Made by a program: the position numbers and the translations under genes | Origin: Calditrichia bacterium | GTDB lineage: Bacteria; Calditrichota; Calditrichia; RBG-13-44-9; J075 | Assembly (NCBI GenBank): GCA_028284905.1 | Contig: JANQQU010000083.1 | Span: forward strand, 1-64,000 | Direction of reading: 5' to 3' | DNA: 64,000 bases | The notes under the pieces: model-generated | The model's database searches: none | The model's input: only the letters and a program-made list of their open reading frames with translations | Told to the model about the DNA's origin: nothing | Shown here: in pieces, positions 21,567 to 64,000 of the stretch | Position numbering within the stretch: position 1 is the stretch's first letter | Layout of the letters: every line of letters starts with the position of its first letter

Positions 21567-21653
21567 AGAATTGCCTCGGAAATGATTTGCAGCTTCTGGC
21601 AAAATATTCAAATGCCAATCAACTTAAAATGTCAGATTGCTACTAATAATAAA

Positions 21654-21750
21654 AGCCAGGTAACCCCACGGCACATAGACTGACCACCTACCGTTGCTTC
21701 CTTCCGGACCTGGCGGGGTTCGGCGGGGTACTATTGCGTGGGACCTGGCT
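21654..21750 (-). ncRNA. ffs: Signal recognition particle RNA, small bacterial type (4.5S)
   Basis: The minus strand contains the invariant SRP domain IV motif CAGGTCCGGAAGGAAGCA, here within a stem-loop, and the ends AGCCAGGT / ACCTGGCT pair to close one long hairpin of about 97 nt; TTTT follows as a terminator. It lacks the Alu domain of the long Bacillus form. It lies just upstream of dnaX, the same place as in Bacillus subtilis. End points are set from the closing stem and are good to a few bases. Confidence 0.95.
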
Positions 21751-43129: not shown

Positions 43130-43347
43130 AAATCAAATCCTTTCCTTCGCTTGGTTCCAGCTTTTAGTTATGCCCCAGTTTTTCAACCTCTGTAAACCTC
43201 AAATTCTAAAATAACCGTTTTGTTAAAAATTCAAAGAAATAATAAGAAATAGTGCTGCTTTAAATTTAGTAAATATGCAAACCCCATAGGGGCAAGTGGG
43301 CAAATGAGCAAAAGTGCAGATTAACAATTCTTTTTGTTCGGGAGTCT

Positions 43348-52151: not shown

Positions 52152-52213
52152 CTTGCCCACTTGTCCCTTTGGTATTTGCAAATCTACAAATCCCAAAGGG
52201 ACAAATGGGCAAG
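52152..52213. repeat. Inverted repeat upstream of the cyclophilin gene
   Basis: Arms 52152-52178 and 52187-52213, 27 bases each, with two mismatches, an 8-base loop, and a core CTTTGG / CCAAAG. A partial relative (aagtgggcaaatgagcaaaagtgc) lies at about 43290-43315, so it is likely a dispersed element. Confidence 0.7.
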
Positions 52214-55182: not shown

Positions 55183-55555
55183 TATTTTTCTGTGCTGAAT
55201 ATTGAGCAGCGTTGTAAAAGAATTGCACATCCGCGAATCTAAACTTCTCGATAATAATATTTTTCTCCGCCCAAATGCCCATTTAACCGGCGTTTATTTT
55301 CAGAAATTGTCATTTGTGATCTGGTCTGTGCAAATATTTTACACTTCTGCTATCTTTTTCCCATGCGAGGCGCGGAGACGTGTTTATGGATAAATAATTA
55401 ACGTTTTCGGTCAAACGATTCATTCCAGCCCATTTTGAATCAGTTTCCAAATTTTGTGCGTCGTTTGTGATGCAGCAATGTCTGTGGCCGTCGGGAAGCG
55501 ATTCCCGGTTCGCCATGACAGGGATTGTCACAGGAAATTCAATAAGGAGATTGCC
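55183..55555. other. Intergenic region upstream of metzincin gene 1
   Basis: 373 bases. Contains a small hairpin TGACA / TGTCA (55516-55530) just before the ribosome site AAGGAG. An open frame runs back to 55454 but without a ribosome site, so I treat it as leader. No known RNA motif. Confidence 0.45.
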
Positions 55556-58291
55556 ATGTCTCGAAATGGGAAAATCTTAATCAATCATATCTACTCTCTG
55601 TTGTTAGTGCTCACCTGCATTTCCGCTAGCCTGGTTGCCCGGGAAAACATCTCCCTGATTGAACAGGAAATTGCCAGCGGGAAAACTGCCGATATTCTTA
55701 CATATCAAAAGCAACGTCGCTTAAATGCTGATATTGCTACCGGAAAAGTACTCCGCCACCGGTTTGTCACTATTAGTCCGCAATTGACTGCAGCGGCAGA
55801 TTTTCAGGGAAAAAATCTTGCACTGGCACTTTTTAGTGATGTCAATTTCCTCAGTGATACTATTTCCAGCAAGCGCCACTCCGCTAAGGAAATGACCCTG
55901 CAAGCGAATTTGAAATCCCAGCCGGGCAGCCTGGTGATCAATCTGCATAATGGGGTTTTGAATGGCGTCGTCCGCACTGCATCTGCGCTTTATCGAATCG
56001 AGCCGGCCGCAGAGGATGTCTATTTGGTAAAGGAAATTGCAATGTCTGCACTGGCCGGGGAATGTGATGCCCGGATAGTCGAGGGATTACCAAAAGGCGT
56101 AATTGAGAAAACCCGTGCGGGACAGTCAGCAAACGACAGCAGTACGATTGATATCATGGTTGTCTACACACCAGCGGCTGCTTTGACTGCGCCGGATATC
56201 GATTCGGAAATTCGTCTGGCAATCAGCGAGTTGAATATGACCTTTGCGCTTAGCGGCGTTCGTCATCGCGCCCGTTTGGTTTACAGCTCGGAAGTCAACT
56301 ACACTGAAAGTGGTGATTTGAATACTGATCTCGATCGCATTAAGGAATATGGCGATGGCCACATGGATGTGGTTCATGTGATGCGCGATGTTTTTGGGGC
56401 GGATGTGGTTAGTCTCTGGACCAATGGCGGCGGTAACGGGGCCGGATATGTTATGCAAACCCCCGATCCATCCTTCGAGAGTCTTGCTTTCCACGCGATT
56501 CGCTGGGATAATGCAGTTAATAATTTCACGTTTGCGCATGAGCTGGGGCATAATCTTGGCGCAGCGCATGACCGGGAAAATGCCGTTATCGCCGGCAGCG
56601 CTTCTTATGCACATGGATATCAGGATCCCGCCGGCAGCTGGCGAACGATTATGGCTTACAGCGATGGATGCAGCTGTTCCCGCATCAGCTATTGGTCCAA
56701 TCCGGAAAAATTCCACCCCGGCGATGGTAGTTTAATGGGTGTTGCCAGCAGCGATTCATTAGGAGCGGATAACCGACGGGTGCTTAACCAAAACGGATCG
56801 ATTGTCGCAGCATTTCGCAGTGGGGCGACGATTCCTTTTCTAGCGGTATCTCCGGAAAATGCGCAGATGGCCCATATCGCCGGCAGCAAAAACCTGGCTG
56901 TGCAGAACATCGGCGCCGGCAGTATGAATTGGAGCGCGGTAGTGACGAGTGGGGGAGAGTGGTTAACGATTTCCGCAGGTGCCAGTGGTGCAGACAGTGG
57001 TAACATCGTTATGGATTTCCCGGAGAATACGGCCTATACTCCGCGAACCGCAGCTGTCTCCATCAACGCGCCCGGCGTTGCCAACAGCCCGCAAACGATT
57101 TACGTGACGCAGCACGGCGTTATTGATTATGCCACCTTGCCATACACAAACGGATTTGAGTCCGGCACCTGGGAAAATTGCTGGCGCACCGATAGTGATC
57201 ACCCCAATGGCGATATTGCTATCGATGGCGAAATTAACCCATTTGCCGGTAATTACAGTTTGAAAATGGCCGCCAGTGTAATTGGACCGATGGTCACCAA
57301 TGATGCGCGCCTCCATTTGAATCTCGCCGGGGAGAAAAATGTTATCCTGGAATTTCAATGGATGCACAGTAATGAGGAAACACATCTTAAAGACGGCGTA
57401 TTCTTTTCTGATGATGCCGGGGAAAGCTTTCAACTGGTGCAGGATTTTCAGTCGCTTTCTTATCCAGCGAATAACTGGATTCCTTTCTCCCTGAATGTGG
57501 ACTCATTGGCAATTGTGCATGGCCTGACGCTTAGCGAACATTTCGTCGTTAAATTCCAACAATATGATAATTTCCCTTTTGGATCGGATGGATTTGCCAT
57601 AGACGATATTGCCGTTTACAGCAAATCGCTTCTGGTAGATGCGCAGGTCTGGCTCTCCGGTGCTTACAAGGCTGCCGGCGATAGCATGAGTACCACGCTT
57701 GCGGCAAAATCCGTGCTGCCATTAAACCAACCCTATGGCGATCCTTCCTGGGGATACAATGGTAGTGAAGCTGTTAGCGAAATTCCGGCTGATATCGTCG
57801 ATTGGGTGTTGCTGGAACTACGTAGCTCACCGGCGCCGGAAAGCATTGTTACCCGCCGGGCCGGATTGTTACGCAAGGATGGCCGCGTGGTAGATCTGGA
57901 CGGCGAATCTCCCTTATGTTTTAACGCTGATGCCGGCAATTATTATCTGGTTGTCTATCATTATAATCATCTGCCGGTGATGAGTAGTTCTTCCTTAATT
58001 TTATCCGCTGCTACAGCAGTTTTAGCAGATCTTTCCTCAGATACTGCAAGTGCTTACGGAACAAACGCTTTGCAACTATTGGAAACAGGCGTTTACGGGA
58101 TGATAACCGGAGATGCAAATGGTGACGGTATCGTTAACGTTGATGACCGGGAAGATGTCTGGCGCAGCGAAAACGGCATACCCTGGGAATATTTCAATAA
58201 TGCCGACTTTAACCTCGATGGCGGTGTCGATGCACTTGATATCAATATTCACTGGCGATCTGCCCTCGGGATGCAGCGACAAGTGCCTTAA
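55556..58291 (+). CDS. Secreted metzincin (reprolysin-like) protease with dockerin-like tail, copy 1
   Basis: 911 residues. Signal peptide (about 1-29), propeptide, then a zinc protease domain (about 195-420) with HELGHNLGAAHD (His328, 332, 338) and Met-turn TIMAYSD: the HExxHxxGxxHD pattern of M12B-like metzincins. Next a BACON-like domain (LAVSPENAQMAH, about 425-525), a jelly-roll/MAM-like segment (GFESGTWENCWRTD), a ~190-residue module beginning VDAQVWLSGAYK with VDWVLLELRS, and a dockerin-like Ca-binding pair (GDANGDGIVNVDDRED ... NLDGGVDALDINIHW). No T9SS tail. Start ATG has AAGGAG six bases upstream. Confidence 0.87.
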   Translation: MSRNGKILINHIYSLLLVLTCISASLVARENISLIEQEIASGKTADILTYQKQRRLNADIATGKVLRHRFVTISPQLTAAADFQGKNLALALFSDVNFLSDTISSKRHSAKEMTLQANLKSQPGSLVINLHNGVLNGVVRTASALYRIEPAAEDVYLVKEIAMSALAGECDARIVEGLPKGVIEKTRAGQSANDSSTIDIMVVYTPAAALTAPDIDSEIRLAISELNMTFALSGVRHRARLVYSSEVNYTESGDLNTDLDRIKEYGDGHMDVVHVMRDVFGADVVSLWTNGGGNGAGYVMQTPDPSFESLAFHAIRWDNAVNNFTFAHELGHNLGAAHDRENAVIAGSASYAHGYQDPAGSWRTIMAYSDGCSCSRISYWSNPEKFHPGDGSLMGVASSDSLGADNRRVLNQNGSIVAAFRSGATIPFLAVSPENAQMAHIAGSKNLAVQNIGAGSMNWSAVVTSGGEWLTISAGASGADSGNIVMDFPENTAYTPRTAAVSINAPGVANSPQTIYVTQHGVIDYATLPYTNGFESGTWENCWRTDSDHPNGDIAIDGEINPFAGNYSLKMAASVIGPMVTNDARLHLNLAGEKNVILEFQWMHSNEETHLKDGVFFSDDAGESFQLVQDFQSLSYPANNWIPFSLNVDSLAIVHGLTLSEHFVVKFQQYDNFPFGSDGFAIDDIAVYSKSLLVDAQVWLSGAYKAAGDSMSTTLAAKSVLPLNQPYGDPSWGYNGSEAVSEIPADIVDWVLLELRSSPAPESIVTRRAGLLRKDGRVVDLDGESPLCFNADAGNYYLVVYHYNHLPVMSSSSLILSAATAVLADLSSDTASAYGTNALQLLETGVYGMITGDANGDGIVNVDDREDVWRSENGIPWEYFNNADFNLDGGVDALDINIHWRSALGMQRQVP

Positions 58292-58648
58292 TCTTAGAAT
58301 AATGGCAATAGGTAGAAGCTGTTGGTAGAAAAGCAAATGTCGCCCGGAGGAACAGCTGAGGCTAATCGTTGATCTTTCTTCGAACAACGAACAACGAACA
58401 ACGAACAACGGCTTCTACATTGGCTATTTTTTACTTTTATAATTGGCCGATACTGTTTATAATGAAGCTCTACAGGTTGTTAAAATCCTGAAAATTTTAT
58501 CCACCGTCACAAACAATGCACTGTGTGAGTACACGCAACGCAATGGGTGGTAAAAATTGTAAAATGCTGATAGCCGGTGGCGGATATATGCATAAGAGCA
58601 GTTGCCGGACTAATAAATAGCATTGTTTAAGGAATTGGGAAAAGTTGT
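58292..58648. other. Intergenic region with heptamer tandem repeat
   Basis: 357 bases. Contains four exact tandem copies of GAACAAC (58382-58409), flanked by TTCGTTGATC-like sequence upstream. No gene or RNA motif recognised. The ribosome site before the next gene is weak. Confidence 0.55.
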
Positions 58649-61600
58649 ATGATTAATCGATTCAAAATTGGCTGCTGCCAACTACTGGTGCTGCTTCTGC
58701 TTTTTGCGGCGGATATCTATGCACAATCCCCACTGGTGGGAGAAAGTGTAAGCGTTTTGGAAGCGGAGTCGATCATGAAACCGGGGGTTTTTGATCGCAT
58801 GGAAATGGACCGGTCGAATGGTGTTATCATTCGGGAAAGATATGCCAGAATAAACCGGGCGCTTATTGATAAATCTAATATTATTATCAATTTATTTGAA
58901 GATTATTCTCCGGAAGGCGATTTTCGAAATATGACAGTGCGCAGCTTAAAAGATATTAGCTGGTCCGGAAAGCTTGCAGAAAACCCCCTGAGCAATATTG
59001 ATCTGGTGATCCGTGGCGAAAATATTACCGGTGATATTCGGGACGGCGCTAGTTATTTTCAAATTCGTCCTGTCGGGGACGGAATGCATTGGATTGGGGA
59101 AATCGATCCTTCCCAATTGCCCGATGTTTGTGAAACGGAAGACGTCGGTGAAAATGATTTTACACCGGACAAACATTTAAAACCTAACCGGGGATTAAAG
59201 CTGGATATTCCTTCTGAGAACATCCTGCCGACAGAAGGAGTGATAATCGATGTGCTGGTGGTTTATACCGATGATGCCGCTGCTGCCTCCAGTGATATTT
59301 CCGCAGAAGTTCAGCTGATGATCGATGTTACGAACAATGCCTTGGCCGCCAGTGGTATCTCTCCACGGGTGAGGCTTATCCATAGTGCGGAATTAGAATA
59401 TGCGGAAAGCAATAGCTCCGCGACGGATCTGGATCGCCTGGAAGATGACGATGATGGATTTATGGATCAGGCCCATACTTTACGGGAATCTTACGGGGCG
59501 GATCTGGTTACCCTGATAGTAGAAAGCCTTAGTGGCGGCGCCTGCGGACGGGCAAATCTTAGCGTAACATCATCCGGTAATTCAAACTGGGCGTTTGGCG
59601 TGGTGCGAAGAAGCTGTGCCGTCGGTAATTTAAGCTTTCCCCACGAAATTGGCCATAATCTCGGTTGCCGGCATGACTGGTATGTCGATGGCACAAACAA
59701 CAGCCCATTTACCTATAATCATGGATATAAGGTTGTTGCGGAAGGCTGGCGGACAATTATGTCCTATAATAACGAATGTACAGCCGGAGGCACCAGCTGT
59801 ACCCGCCTGGCTTATTTCTCCAATCCCGATACGCTTCATCCAACAACCAGCACACCAATGGGGATTGCCGAAGGAAATGCCAGCGCTGCTGATAATCGTA
59901 AAACCTGGAATAATATGGGGAGTGTCATCGCCGCTTATCGCAGTAATTCGGCCTCTCCAGTGATAAATATTGGAAATGCCAGTGTGCGGGAAGGAGATGC
60001 TGGCTCGGTTAATCTTGATTTCGAAGTATACCTTTCCGAAGCCCCAACCGTGCAGGTTAAAGTTGCCTATTACACGGCAGACAGCACAGCGACATCCAGC
60101 GGGGATTATACCGCCGTAAGTAGCGATACGGTAACCTTTGTAATTGGGGATTCCACAGAAACAGTTTCGATCAGCGTTAATGGCGATATTACCAACGAAT
60201 CAGACGAATATCTAAAAGTGATTTTGACAGATCCGACGAACGGGGTTATTTCCGATAGCCTGGGGGTTGGCACCATCATCGATGATGAGAATATCGGAGA
60301 AATTGCCGTAAACCCGGCATCTTTTTCGGTAAGTGTCCTGGCAGACAGCAGCCTGGTCGATTCGATAACGATCGAGAATATCGGCGATGCCAGCCTGACA
60401 TATACTATGAAAGAAAGGGCTGCTGCCACAAAGCAGAAAACCGGAAAAGTTAAATCTGCCGGCAGTCGCTCCTGGCGGCCGTTGCCCTTTGCAAAAGAGG
60501 GAGAAATGCCAGCACTTTCTGATGATAGAACCGACCTGATTACCGGCAATGCTGGCAGCTTGCCCCTGGAGACCACCCAGTTTACCGATTCACTGGTGTT
60601 TGAAGATTATACCAGCGGGGATTGGTATACTAGTGTAGGTTATGGCTCCCAAACCCCATTTTATGTCGGCGTAAAATTTACGACTTCCGGCCCATTCACC
60701 TTATCGCATGTTCATACCCGCTATCGCACTTACAACAGCACTTCGGATATTTATGTCAGTATTCGCGATGATAATAGCGGCGCTCCCGGTACGGAATTAC
60801 AGCGGGATACGCTCAGTGCGGCGGAATGGCGGCATTATTATTCCGAATGGGAATTGATTGCGCTTTCTTCAACAGTATCTTTTGGGAGCAGTGAAGATTT
60901 TTGGATTACCCTGGAATTTCAGGATGTTCAATGGCCAATGAACATCACAGATTCCCTGGTAAATGTTGATAGTCGAGCGTCTTTTTCCCCTAACGGCAGC
61001 ACCTGGTATGATATTCATGGCTCATATCCCGGTGATGTCTGGATTATCCGTGCATTGGAACAGTTTGATTTGGACTGGCTTTCTTTGGGAGGAAATGGTG
61101 GAAGCCTTTCTGCCGGCGATTCCACTAAGATCGCTGTAACATTCGATGCAAGCGGTTTGAATGTCGGTGCCTACAATGGAGAATTGAGTGTAAGCAGCAA
61201 TGATCCTTTTAATTCCGATATTACCGTGCCATTGACATTCAATGTTCTCGGGCCTTTGTCTGTAAATGCGAAGGTTATTCTTGAAGGGCCTTATGATAGC
61301 ACCGGTAGCAGTATGAATACTTATCTCGGGGAAAATGACCTACTGCCGCTCAGCCAGCCCTACAGCGGAGGTGATTGGAGCTACGGTGGTAGTGAAAGCG
61401 TTTCTACAATACCGACCGGTGTGGTAGATTGGGTCTTGCTGTCGCTGAGAAGTGAAAGTAATGCGGAATCACTCATCGCTTCCCGTGCTGCCTTTTTGAA
61501 GAATGACGGGAGTGTTGTGGATACCAATGGCGTTAGTACCGTTTCCTTTCCCGGAATTGCTCATGGCGACTATTACATCTGTGTATATCATCGCAATCAC

Positions 61601-61984
61601 CTGGGAGTGATGAGTAAAAACAAAGTGACTTTGAATAGCAGTAGTACGCTTTATGATTTCAGTTTATCCGGGAATGCTTATGGCACTGCACCCACAAAGC
61701 AGGTTGGCAGCAGTGGGCCTTACTGCCTGCGTTCCGGCGATGGCAACAGCGATGGAGGGGTGGATGCGCTGGATAAAAATTTGATCTGGCGTGACGAAAA
61801 CGGGTCGGTTTGGTCTTACAGTAAAAAGGGCGATCTTAATCTTGATGGTGGTATTGATGCCCTCGATCTGAATCTGCATTGGCGACCGGATAATGGCGCG
61901 GCCAGTCAAATTCCCGGTAACGCTTCGGAAAATACCGCCGGAAATGAAGGTTCCGGGCAGCAAAAAAATTTGAAACGAAATTGA
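58649..61984 (+). CDS. Secreted metzincin protease with Calx-beta and dockerin-like tail, copy 2
   Basis: 1111 residues. Signal peptide (about 1-25, ending IYAQ); propeptide; zinc protease domain (about 200-430) with HEIGHNLGCRHD (His332, 336, 342) and TIMSYNN; a Calx-beta domain (about 440-545, SVREGDAGSVNLDFEVYLSE); a long beta region with choice-of-anchor-like parts (about 640-800); an Ig-like piece; the same ~190-residue module as copy 1 (VNAKVILEGPYD, VDWVLLSLRSE, HRNHLGVMS); and a dockerin-like pair (GDGNSDGGVDALDKN ... NLDGGIDALDLNLHW). Protease domains of the two copies are clearly paralogous but linkers differ. No T9SS tail. Confidence 0.87.
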   Translation: MINRFKIGCCQLLVLLLLFAADIYAQSPLVGESVSVLEAESIMKPGVFDRMEMDRSNGVIIRERYARINRALIDKSNIIINLFEDYSPEGDFRNMTVRSLKDISWSGKLAENPLSNIDLVIRGENITGDIRDGASYFQIRPVGDGMHWIGEIDPSQLPDVCETEDVGENDFTPDKHLKPNRGLKLDIPSENILPTEGVIIDVLVVYTDDAAAASSDISAEVQLMIDVTNNALAASGISPRVRLIHSAELEYAESNSSATDLDRLEDDDDGFMDQAHTLRESYGADLVTLIVESLSGGACGRANLSVTSSGNSNWAFGVVRRSCAVGNLSFPHEIGHNLGCRHDWYVDGTNNSPFTYNHGYKVVAEGWRTIMSYNNECTAGGTSCTRLAYFSNPDTLHPTTSTPMGIAEGNASAADNRKTWNNMGSVIAAYRSNSASPVINIGNASVREGDAGSVNLDFEVYLSEAPTVQVKVAYYTADSTATSSGDYTAVSSDTVTFVIGDSTETVSISVNGDITNESDEYLKVILTDPTNGVISDSLGVGTIIDDENIGEIAVNPASFSVSVLADSSLVDSITIENIGDASLTYTMKERAAATKQKTGKVKSAGSRSWRPLPFAKEGEMPALSDDRTDLITGNAGSLPLETTQFTDSLVFEDYTSGDWYTSVGYGSQTPFYVGVKFTTSGPFTLSHVHTRYRTYNSTSDIYVSIRDDNSGAPGTELQRDTLSAAEWRHYYSEWELIALSSTVSFGSSEDFWITLEFQDVQWPMNITDSLVNVDSRASFSPNGSTWYDIHGSYPGDVWIIRALEQFDLDWLSLGGNGGSLSAGDSTKIAVTFDASGLNVGAYNGELSVSSNDPFNSDITVPLTFNVLGPLSVNAKVILEGPYDSTGSSMNTYLGENDLLPLSQPYSGGDWSYGGSESVSTIPTGVVDWVLLSLRSESNAESLIASRAAFLKNDGSVVDTNGVSTVSFPGIAHGDYYICVYHRNHLGVMSKNKVTLNSSSTLYDFSLSGNAYGTAPTKQVGSSGPYCLRSGDGNSDGGVDALDKNLIWRDENGSVWSYSKKGDLNLDGGIDALDLNLHWRPDNGAASQIPGNASENTAGNEGSGQQKNLKRN

Positions 61985-62156
61985 AAATGTACGACCTGGA
62001 TCACAGTAAGAAACGCTAAAAATGAAGAATATTCATTTTATTGCATAAAATTTAGTAAATATACACCCTGGGAGGGTTGGTCGGTATTTTTATTAATTGG
62101 CTAAACCCTATGTTCTAAATATTGAAATTTTGGTCGAATTATAGTATTTTTAATAC
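61985..62156. other. Spacer upstream of the structured leader
   Basis: 172 bases, AT-rich. Should carry the promoter of the subtilase-like gene. A run TAGTATTTTTAATACT at 62142-62157 is a small palindrome directly before the leader. Nothing else supported. Confidence 0.4.
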
Positions 62157-62306
62157 TGACAGTCGTCAGCTCATCTTAGTCCGATGAGTTGAAAGAGATA
62201 AACGGACTTGGTCTCTGACATCTGCCTATGGGGATAGGGTTAGTTCTTGGTGATACGGCTTTCGTATACCGGTACTACGAAGCGTGTAATATGCTTCGGC
62301 AAGAAC
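62157..62306 (+). promoter_or_regulatory. Candidate structured 5' leader RNA (kissing hairpins plus three-way junction)
   Basis: Read by eye. Part 1: hairpins CTCAT/ATGAG and AGAGA/TCTCT (62194-62198/62212-62216), whose loops carry AGTCCG (62178-62183) and CGGACT (62203-62208), which are perfectly complementary. Part 2: CCTAT/ATAGG with a GGGG loop. Part 3: GTTCTTG/CAAGAAC (62243-62249/62300-62306) closing a junction with ATACG/CGTAT (62253-62257/62263-62267) and CGAAGC/GCTTCG (62278-62283/62293-62298). AGGAGG follows at 62317 and ATG at 62327. I do not recognise a known riboswitch class. Covariation would be needed. Confidence 0.4.
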
Positions 62307-62326
62307 AATTATCGTAGGAGGCAATT

Positions 62327-64000
62327 ATGGAATCTCGTAAATGCACAGGCATTTGGATGACCATTGTTTTAGTTAGCGCACTCTGTTTTGGGAGTGTTTA
62401 TGGTCAGCAACTAAGTGATTCTAATCCCGCTAAGTTTCGTAGCAACCAGCATCCATCTCCAGCTCAGTTGCAATCTCAGCTCGCGGCAGCACAGCAAGTC
62501 AAATTGGCGCTGCAACCGTATCAGGAAAAGTTCAGCAGCGATTTACTGGGATTACTTTATCCTGAAACCCTTCCAATTGGTACTTCACTGGAAAATCATC
62601 TGCGCAGTATGCAGACCCTTGAGGATCTGCAATCTCCGGATGCATTAATAACGCAGGTTTCCCAAATACAAGATATCGCCGTCGATGTTTACGTTTATCT
62701 TCAGGATAACGTATCATTGGCATTGGTTGATGCTTATGCGGATGAAATCAGCCATCGGGTAGAAAACGATAATCTGGTTGTCGCCCGGGTGAAGATCGCC
62801 CGTCTGGAAAGCCTGGCCCAACGTGCCGAGGTGCGGCGAATCGAAACTGTTGCCTCACCAGTCCATGCAACTGGTTCCGTAACTTCGGAAGGAGATGCCA
62901 TTCACCGGGCAGATGTCGCTCGCAGCATTTATGGGCAGGGGGGCAGTGGTGTTACCGTCGGCATCATATCCGATGGAGTGGATAATCGGGCTTCTGCACA
63001 AAGTAGTGGCGACCTCCCCGCTGACGGCAGCGGCTTGACGGTACTTTCCAACAATCAGGGGGGCGACGAAGGAACTGCGATTCTGGAAATCGTTCATGAC
63101 CTCGCCCCGGATGCAAATTTACTTTTCCATGATAATGGCGGTAGTAACCCCGGTTTTCGCGATGCAGTGGATGAATTGGTTGCTGCCGGCGCGGATATTA
63201 TCATTGATGACGTTCAATGGCTTGGCCAACCACTGTTTGAAGACGGTGTCGTCGCATCCCACATTACTGATGTTGTCGCTAACAACGATGTGGTCTATGT
63301 AACCGCAGCGGGAAATGGCGGAAATACTCATTACCAGGGAGAATTTACGCCATTACTAGGCGCATCAAATATACACGATTTTAGTGGCGCTGGAATAGGG
63401 GAGCCATATCTATATATCAATTTGGACGATGGTGAGGGCATTCGCGTGGTTATGCAATGGGATGAACCATTTGGCGCTGCCGCCAGTGATTATGATGTCT
63501 ATCTCTACAGCTTTACTACGAATGAATTGGTTGCCAGCAGCACCAACCTCCAAAGTGGCAGCGAAAACCCCTTCGAACGATTCAGCTACCGCGCAAATGC
63601 AAGCACGGCTGGAGATTTTGCCGTTGTAGCGATGCAAACCTCCGGTGATGCGCATACACTTGAAGTAAACCTCTATGAAGTTTTTGGAGCGGCTGTTTAT
63701 ATCAACAATATCGTTCCCGGCGATGCGGTTTGGGGACACGCCGCTGTCGAAGACGTCGTTACCGTTGGGGCAATTGACGCTGCAGATCCCGGAAATGATA
63801 ATCTGCGCAGCTATTCTTCCCAGGGGCCCTCGACAATCATGTTCCCGCCAGCGGTTCGTAGTAAGCCGGATATCTCTGCTGTCGATGGTGTTTCGGTAAC
63901 CGGGGCCGGTGGATTTCCCAGCACTTTTATCGGCACCAGTGCTGCTGCCGCTCATATCGCTGCGATTGCAGCCCAACTACGCGGGCAGTTCCCCGATAGC
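62327..64000 (+). CDS. Exported subtilase-fold (S8/S53-like) protease, cut by window end
   Basis: 558 codons in frame without a stop; the gene runs off the window. AGGAGG five bases before the ATG. Signal peptide (about 1-30, ending VYGQ), an N-terminal region (about 35-190), then a subtilase fold: GVTVGIISDGVDN (Asp216), GGDEGTAILEIVHDLAPDA (Glu248 at the usual catalytic-His place), VVYVTAAGNGG (oxyanion-hole Asn), and GTSAAAAHIAAIAAQL (Ser538; Ala where GTSxAAPH has Pro). An inserted beta domain (about 350-470) resembles a PPC-type fold. The Glu-for-His change recalls sedolisins (Ser-Glu-Asp). A C-terminal sorting or dockerin domain may follow beyond the window. Confidence 0.88.
   Translation, partial: MESRKCTGIWMTIVLVSALCFGSVYGQQLSDSNPAKFRSNQHPSPAQLQSQLAAAQQVKLALQPYQEKFSSDLLGLLYPETLPIGTSLENHLRSMQTLEDLQSPDALITQVSQIQDIAVDVYVYLQDNVSLALVDAYADEISHRVENDNLVVARVKIARLESLAQRAEVRRIETVASPVHATGSVTSEGDAIHRADVARSIYGQGGSGVTVGIISDGVDNRASAQSSGDLPADGSGLTVLSNNQGGDEGTAILEIVHDLAPDANLLFHDNGGSNPGFRDAVDELVAAGADIIIDDVQWLGQPLFEDGVVASHITDVVANNDVVYVTAAGNGGNTHYQGEFTPLLGASNIHDFSGAGIGEPYLYINLDDGEGIRVVMQWDEPFGAAASDYDVYLYSFTTNELVASSTNLQSGSENPFERFSYRANASTAGDFAVVAMQTSGDAHTLEVNLYEVFGAAVYINNIVPGDAVWGHAAVEDVVTVGAIDAADPGNDNLRSYSSQGPSTIMFPPAVRSKPDISAVDGVSVTGAGGFPSTFIGTSAAAAHIAAIAAQLRGQFPDS

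Follow-up and report, generated by a model that had tools for sequence, protein, structure and literature searches.

The protease locus and its upstream gap

The window that we have analyzed, a stretch of 64,000 nucleotides from a Calditrichia bacterium, ends within a gene for a subtilisin-like (S8) secreted protease, which starts with the ATG at 62327 on the plus strand, runs through 64000 and continues beyond the window end. The product, of 901 amino acids, comprises an S8 subtilase domain, a CHB_HEX_C/Fn3-associated region and a dockerin-like C-terminal end. A first-pass annotation had correctly called it a secreted protease: the S8 domain has been identified, and the signal peptide was judged by eye. 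The gene is one of three consecutive secreted protease genes, two M12B reprolysin-like and one S8, that lie head to tail at 55454-64000. The three proteins have a common C-terminal module with the dockerin-like end, and this module is found in about 20 proteins of the same genome, at 42-54% identity. The S8 gene is preceded by the Shine-Dalgarno (SD) sequence AGGAGG (62316-62321, plus strand), 5 nt ahead of the ATG.

The intergenic gap between this gene and the protease gene upstream extends from 61985 to 62326. Its left part is AT-rich (29.1% GC), and its right part, at 62157-62306 on the plus strand, has 46.7% GC; it is this segment that was claimed to form a structured leader, and the jump from 29% to 47% GC coincides with its left edge, at 62157. 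The best 150-nt stretch of the gap is second in the window for GC enrichment, behind the bacterial small SRP RNA (Rfam RF00169, 75.9 bits; 21651-21750, minus strand). Structured RNAs are enriched in long, GC-rich intergenic gaps, and the gap-sorting approach that exploits this also returns many such gaps without homology even in close species (PMC8632094). The GC enrichment of the segment is the best independent hint of a possible structured RNA.

A weak sigma-70-like promoter, TTGAAA and TATTTT separated by 17 nt, matches at 62122-62150 on the plus strand. Since one such site was found and 1.6 are expected in shuffled sequence, the match is no evidence by itself; if it is used, transcription probably starts near 62157. 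The same region carries a 12-nt near-repeat, GTATTTTTATTA and GTATTTTTAATA, with the copies 60 nt apart at 62084-62095 and 62143-62157. The second copy sits within the palindrome AGTATTTTTAATACT, which was read directly from the sequence and which overlaps the presumed -10 element. Near-repeat and palindrome together are a possible operator.

Predicted fold of the leader

The segment had been described as five or six short perfect helices nested without conflict. Six helices, H1 to H6, and a 3-bp closing stem are indeed present and mutually compatible, so that they can be written in one structure; they are not all perfect, however, because H1, H2 and H6 contain G-U pairs. In the minimum-free-energy fold the 3-bp stem (62162-62164/62217-62219) closes a first domain, at 62162-62219, that consists of the 10-bp hairpin H1 (62166-62175/62183-62192, loop TTAGTCC) and the 6-bp hairpin H2 (62194-62199/62211-62216, loop AAACGGACTTG). 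H3 is a 5-bp hairpin (62225-62229/62234-62238). The second domain, at 62243-62306, is context-dependent; in it the 7-bp stem H4 (62243-62249/62300-62306) closes a three-way junction with H5, a 5-bp hairpin (62253-62257/62263-62267), and H6, a 9-bp hairpin with a triloop (62278-62286/62290-62298). All these elements are on the plus strand.

Partition-function calculations with varied transcript ends separate the helices into robust and sensitive ones. H1 (median pair probability 0.86-1.0), H2 (0.81-0.98), H5 (0.95-0.99) and H6 (0.97-1.0) keep high values in all contexts, and those of H3 and H4 shift with the transcript ends chosen. H3 reaches 0.86 only in transcripts without the SD and otherwise falls to 0-0.06, a range that leaves out the longest transcript. 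In transcripts that contain the SD it disappears, since TCGTAGG (62312-62318) is then available to CCTATGG (62225-62231), and further competing pairings displace it as well. H4 is absent from the minimum-free-energy fold of the segment, where its median pair probability is 0.12; it reaches 0.87 with the SD, 0.50 with the start codon and only 0.05 with 107 nt more of upstream sequence, being displaced either by pairings of the SD or by the upstream sequence. The 7-bp stem said to close a three-way junction just before the ribosome site can form, but its probability ranges from 0.05 to 0.87, and together with the loss of H3 this makes the junction one among several near-equal folds.

The first domain also offers a possible pairing between its two hairpin loops, predicted from complementarity: AGTCC(G) at 62178-62183 with CGGACT at 62203-62208, on the plus strand. 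The loops had been reported as complementary over 6 nt. Five nucleotides lie in both loops, but the final G of AGTCCG is half of the C-G pair that closes H1, so that only five loop nucleotides are free to pair. The computed energy of the bare loop-loop duplex is -5.4 kcal/mol for 5 bp and -7.8 kcal/mol for 6 bp. Under a strict definition of such a kissing-hairpin pair, 2 of 20,000 shuffles of the leader contain one; shuffled sequence gives 0.025 cases per 64-kb strand and the actual genome 3 in 864 kb, counting both strands, for a chance expectation of about 0.05-0.13 per 64-kb window. Moreover, the protease leader is the sole case among 213 leaders of the genome, the others lacking even a loose one. 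Under the loose definition (stems of at least 6 bp, gap of at most 20), the window has four pairs on the plus strand and none on the minus strand, compared with 2.1 per strand in shuffles. The strict definition was fitted to the leader after the case had been seen, and because it was set post hoc the rarity of the pair is suggestive at most.

Stability and occlusion of the SD against background

The stability of the segment does not stand clearly beyond that of dinucleotide shuffles or of other leaders (z of -1.66 to -2.0). At z = -1.66, 13 of 200 shuffles were equally good; at z of about -2.0, the leader ranks 7 among the 30 that were compared in the window. Of 213 leaders taken from 864 kb of the same genome, 22% do as well or better in z. 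Our positive control, the SRP RNA of this window, gives a z of about -4.7 to -4.8. By absolute folding energy the leader is in the top 4% of the 213. Hairpins of at least 10 bp number 27 on the plus strand, against 14-29 in shuffles. Elsewhere in the window, a near-perfect 21-bp hairpin (52153-52213, minus strand) has a z of -5.5; partial copies of one of its arms occur at 43266-43307 and on two other contigs (C59 and C37), and the whole resembles a small, dispersed element of the inverted-repeat type.

The SD has a mean unpaired probability of 0.24, and folds in which it is open or closed differ by 0.5-4 kcal/mol. Alternation of the SD between paired and free states did not exceed what is seen in shuffled leaders. 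In 33% of these the SD is occluded to the same degree or more, so that support for a translational switch does not exceed chance.

Search for relatives

A DNA similarity search with the leader found no match in its own 8.55-Mb genome, in 98 relatives, or in phages and plasmids, and patterns of the loop region, matched exactly against viral contigs and allowing 3 mismatches in the genome itself, returned only the leader. Covariance models were built from the single leader sequence for the whole element (R1), the first domain (R2) and the second (R3). In 40 genomes of the phylum, 39 besides its own, all three recovered only the leader itself, and the whole-element model found no homolog in about 385 genomes across the domain. 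Models of this kind are weak detectors, so that distant structural relatives could escape them. No second genome of the same genus surfaced in any of the searches.

The best match to the first-domain model (L038; E 0.0013 for a single genome) falls within a protein-coding ORF and has no counterpart of the H1 tip, two weak covariance matches (L098 and L099) are likewise within protein-coding ORFs, and a third (L046) falls in a repetitive intergenic stretch; we attribute all four to chance. The other matches to the two domain models reached at best an E of about 1 per genome and were judged from the alignment alone.

The nearest relatives of the protease, subtilases of other families with 38-42% identity, have AT-rich leaders, which gave no match to the segment even with filters off. 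None of the genes for the roughly 20 other proteins of the genome that carry the C-terminal module is preceded by the element. A different leader is common to two genomes, upstream of related protease ORFs (L024 in G039, 1047-1092, and L025 in G024, 601-750). It has a strong SD, a 5-codon ORF (MLAVK followed by a stop) and the hairpins CCCGAAG...CTTCGGG and GGGGCAAAA...TTTTGCCCC; as a candidate conserved leader it is preferable to 62157-62306.

The segment had also been said to match no nameable class, and this holds: the SRP RNA is the one match that Rfam 15 yields across the window. With relaxed thresholds, 62000-62400 gave chance matches only, the best being to a sequence-only lncRNA model (E 0.097; 17.9 bits, where the cut-off is 50), and the purine riboswitch (RF00167) did not match the leader at any threshold used. 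A hammerhead, suggested by the letters GATGAG...GAAA, was rejected, since the order of the core is wrong for it and Rfam gives no match.

Interpretation

We favor the view, with a probability of about 0.65, that the segment belongs to the 5' UTR of the mRNA for one secreted subtilisin-like protease, a leader of an ordinary kind, rather long and with a moderate amount of structure. This is the most likely reading because the stability of the fold is nothing unusual in this genome and no relative was found. We count for it the z-score, unexceptional next to the SRP control, the occlusion of the SD within the range of shuffles, the dependence of H3 and H4 on transcript ends, the lack of a genomic copy, the unrelated leaders of the nearest proteases and the lack of an Rfam match; against it stand the jump in GC at the left edge, the only kissing pair in 213 leaders and the folding energy in the top 4%. 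The models indicate that the helices can form and that the SD is partly pairable. The hairpins would form as in many GC-richer leaders; base-paired 5' hairpins would be expected to slow mRNA decay, a generic effect, and partial pairing around the SD may mildly tune translation. The data can be explained in this way with neither a ligand pocket nor a dedicated switch.

The strongest competitor, which we nevertheless hold to be unlikely, is a lineage-specific cis-regulatory leader RNA through which some signal controls translation of the protease. The first domain would then be a compact fold of H1 and H2 held by the loop-loop pairing, and the second a junction beside the ribosome site, with the 5' arm of H3 toggling between its own hairpin, leaving the SD open, and the SD region, closing it. 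The rarity of the kissing pair in the genome, the GC-rich island inside an AT-rich gap, the small difference between SD-open and SD-closed folds (0.5-4 kcal/mol) and the mutual exclusion of H3 and SD pairing all point this way. However, there being no homolog, there is no covariation; the z-score is ordinary, closure of the SD is no better than in shuffles, and the test for kissing pairs was defined post hoc. Moreover, the linkers of the first domain, at 0-1 nt, would leave scant space for a pocket, and the stems of H1 and H2 (10 and 6 bp) seem too unequal to pack side by side. The more specific version, a leader restricted to the species or genus in which the two hairpins, locked by 5-6 nt of loop pairing, feed a junction/SD switch controlling the dockerin-bearing protease, is more doubtful still. 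If there is a true regulatory RNA here, this sparsely sampled phylum (40 genomes) would gain an orphan element controlling secreted protein breakdown.

Equally doubtful is that the segment is not transcribed as a leader, transcription starting inside it or coming through from upstream, or that it is a remnant of lost coding sequence, with hairpins formed by chance. Its GC content is near the window mean of 45%, as expected of a decayed coding segment; the promoter match does not exceed chance, and the three protease genes are head to tail. On the other hand, the short ORFs of the segment have no protein-family match beyond chance, and the good SD and the AT-rich stretch before 62157 resemble an ordinary promoter followed by a leader. 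That the segment is a divergent representative of some known class of riboswitch or ribozyme is very improbable: loop-loop pairing above a junction recalls the layout of the purine riboswitch, but relaxed searches of Rfam 15 gave nothing meaningful (best E 0.097, 17.9 bits against 50).

Overall, the evidence from this single sequence is mixed: it does not back a ligand-binding RNA, and it does not allow a lineage-specific leader to be firmly rejected. The case also illustrates that helices and loop complementarity found by eye can support a new class only once they are joined by relatives and by an empirical background.

Comparison with known systems

The aptamer of the purine riboswitch has two adjacent hairpins above a closing stem, with complementary loops. 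The leader resembles it in having neighboring hairpins over a closing stem and complementary loops; it differs in that the closing stem is only 3 bp, the linkers are 0-1 nt and the hairpin stems are unequal, and in preceding a protease gene rather than purine genes, with no match to RF00167. With the orphan candidates from GC-rich intergenic regions (PMC8632094) it has in common a long gap, a GC-rich segment and no homologs, and unlike motifs named on comparative support from other sequences it is a single sequence. It departs from most leaders of its genome in its higher GC content, its lower absolute folding energy and its one kissing-hairpin pair. Like ordinary bacterial structured 5' UTRs, it is without conservation beyond the species, is about 170 nt long, has an SD 5 nt before the ATG and forms hairpins of typical stability.
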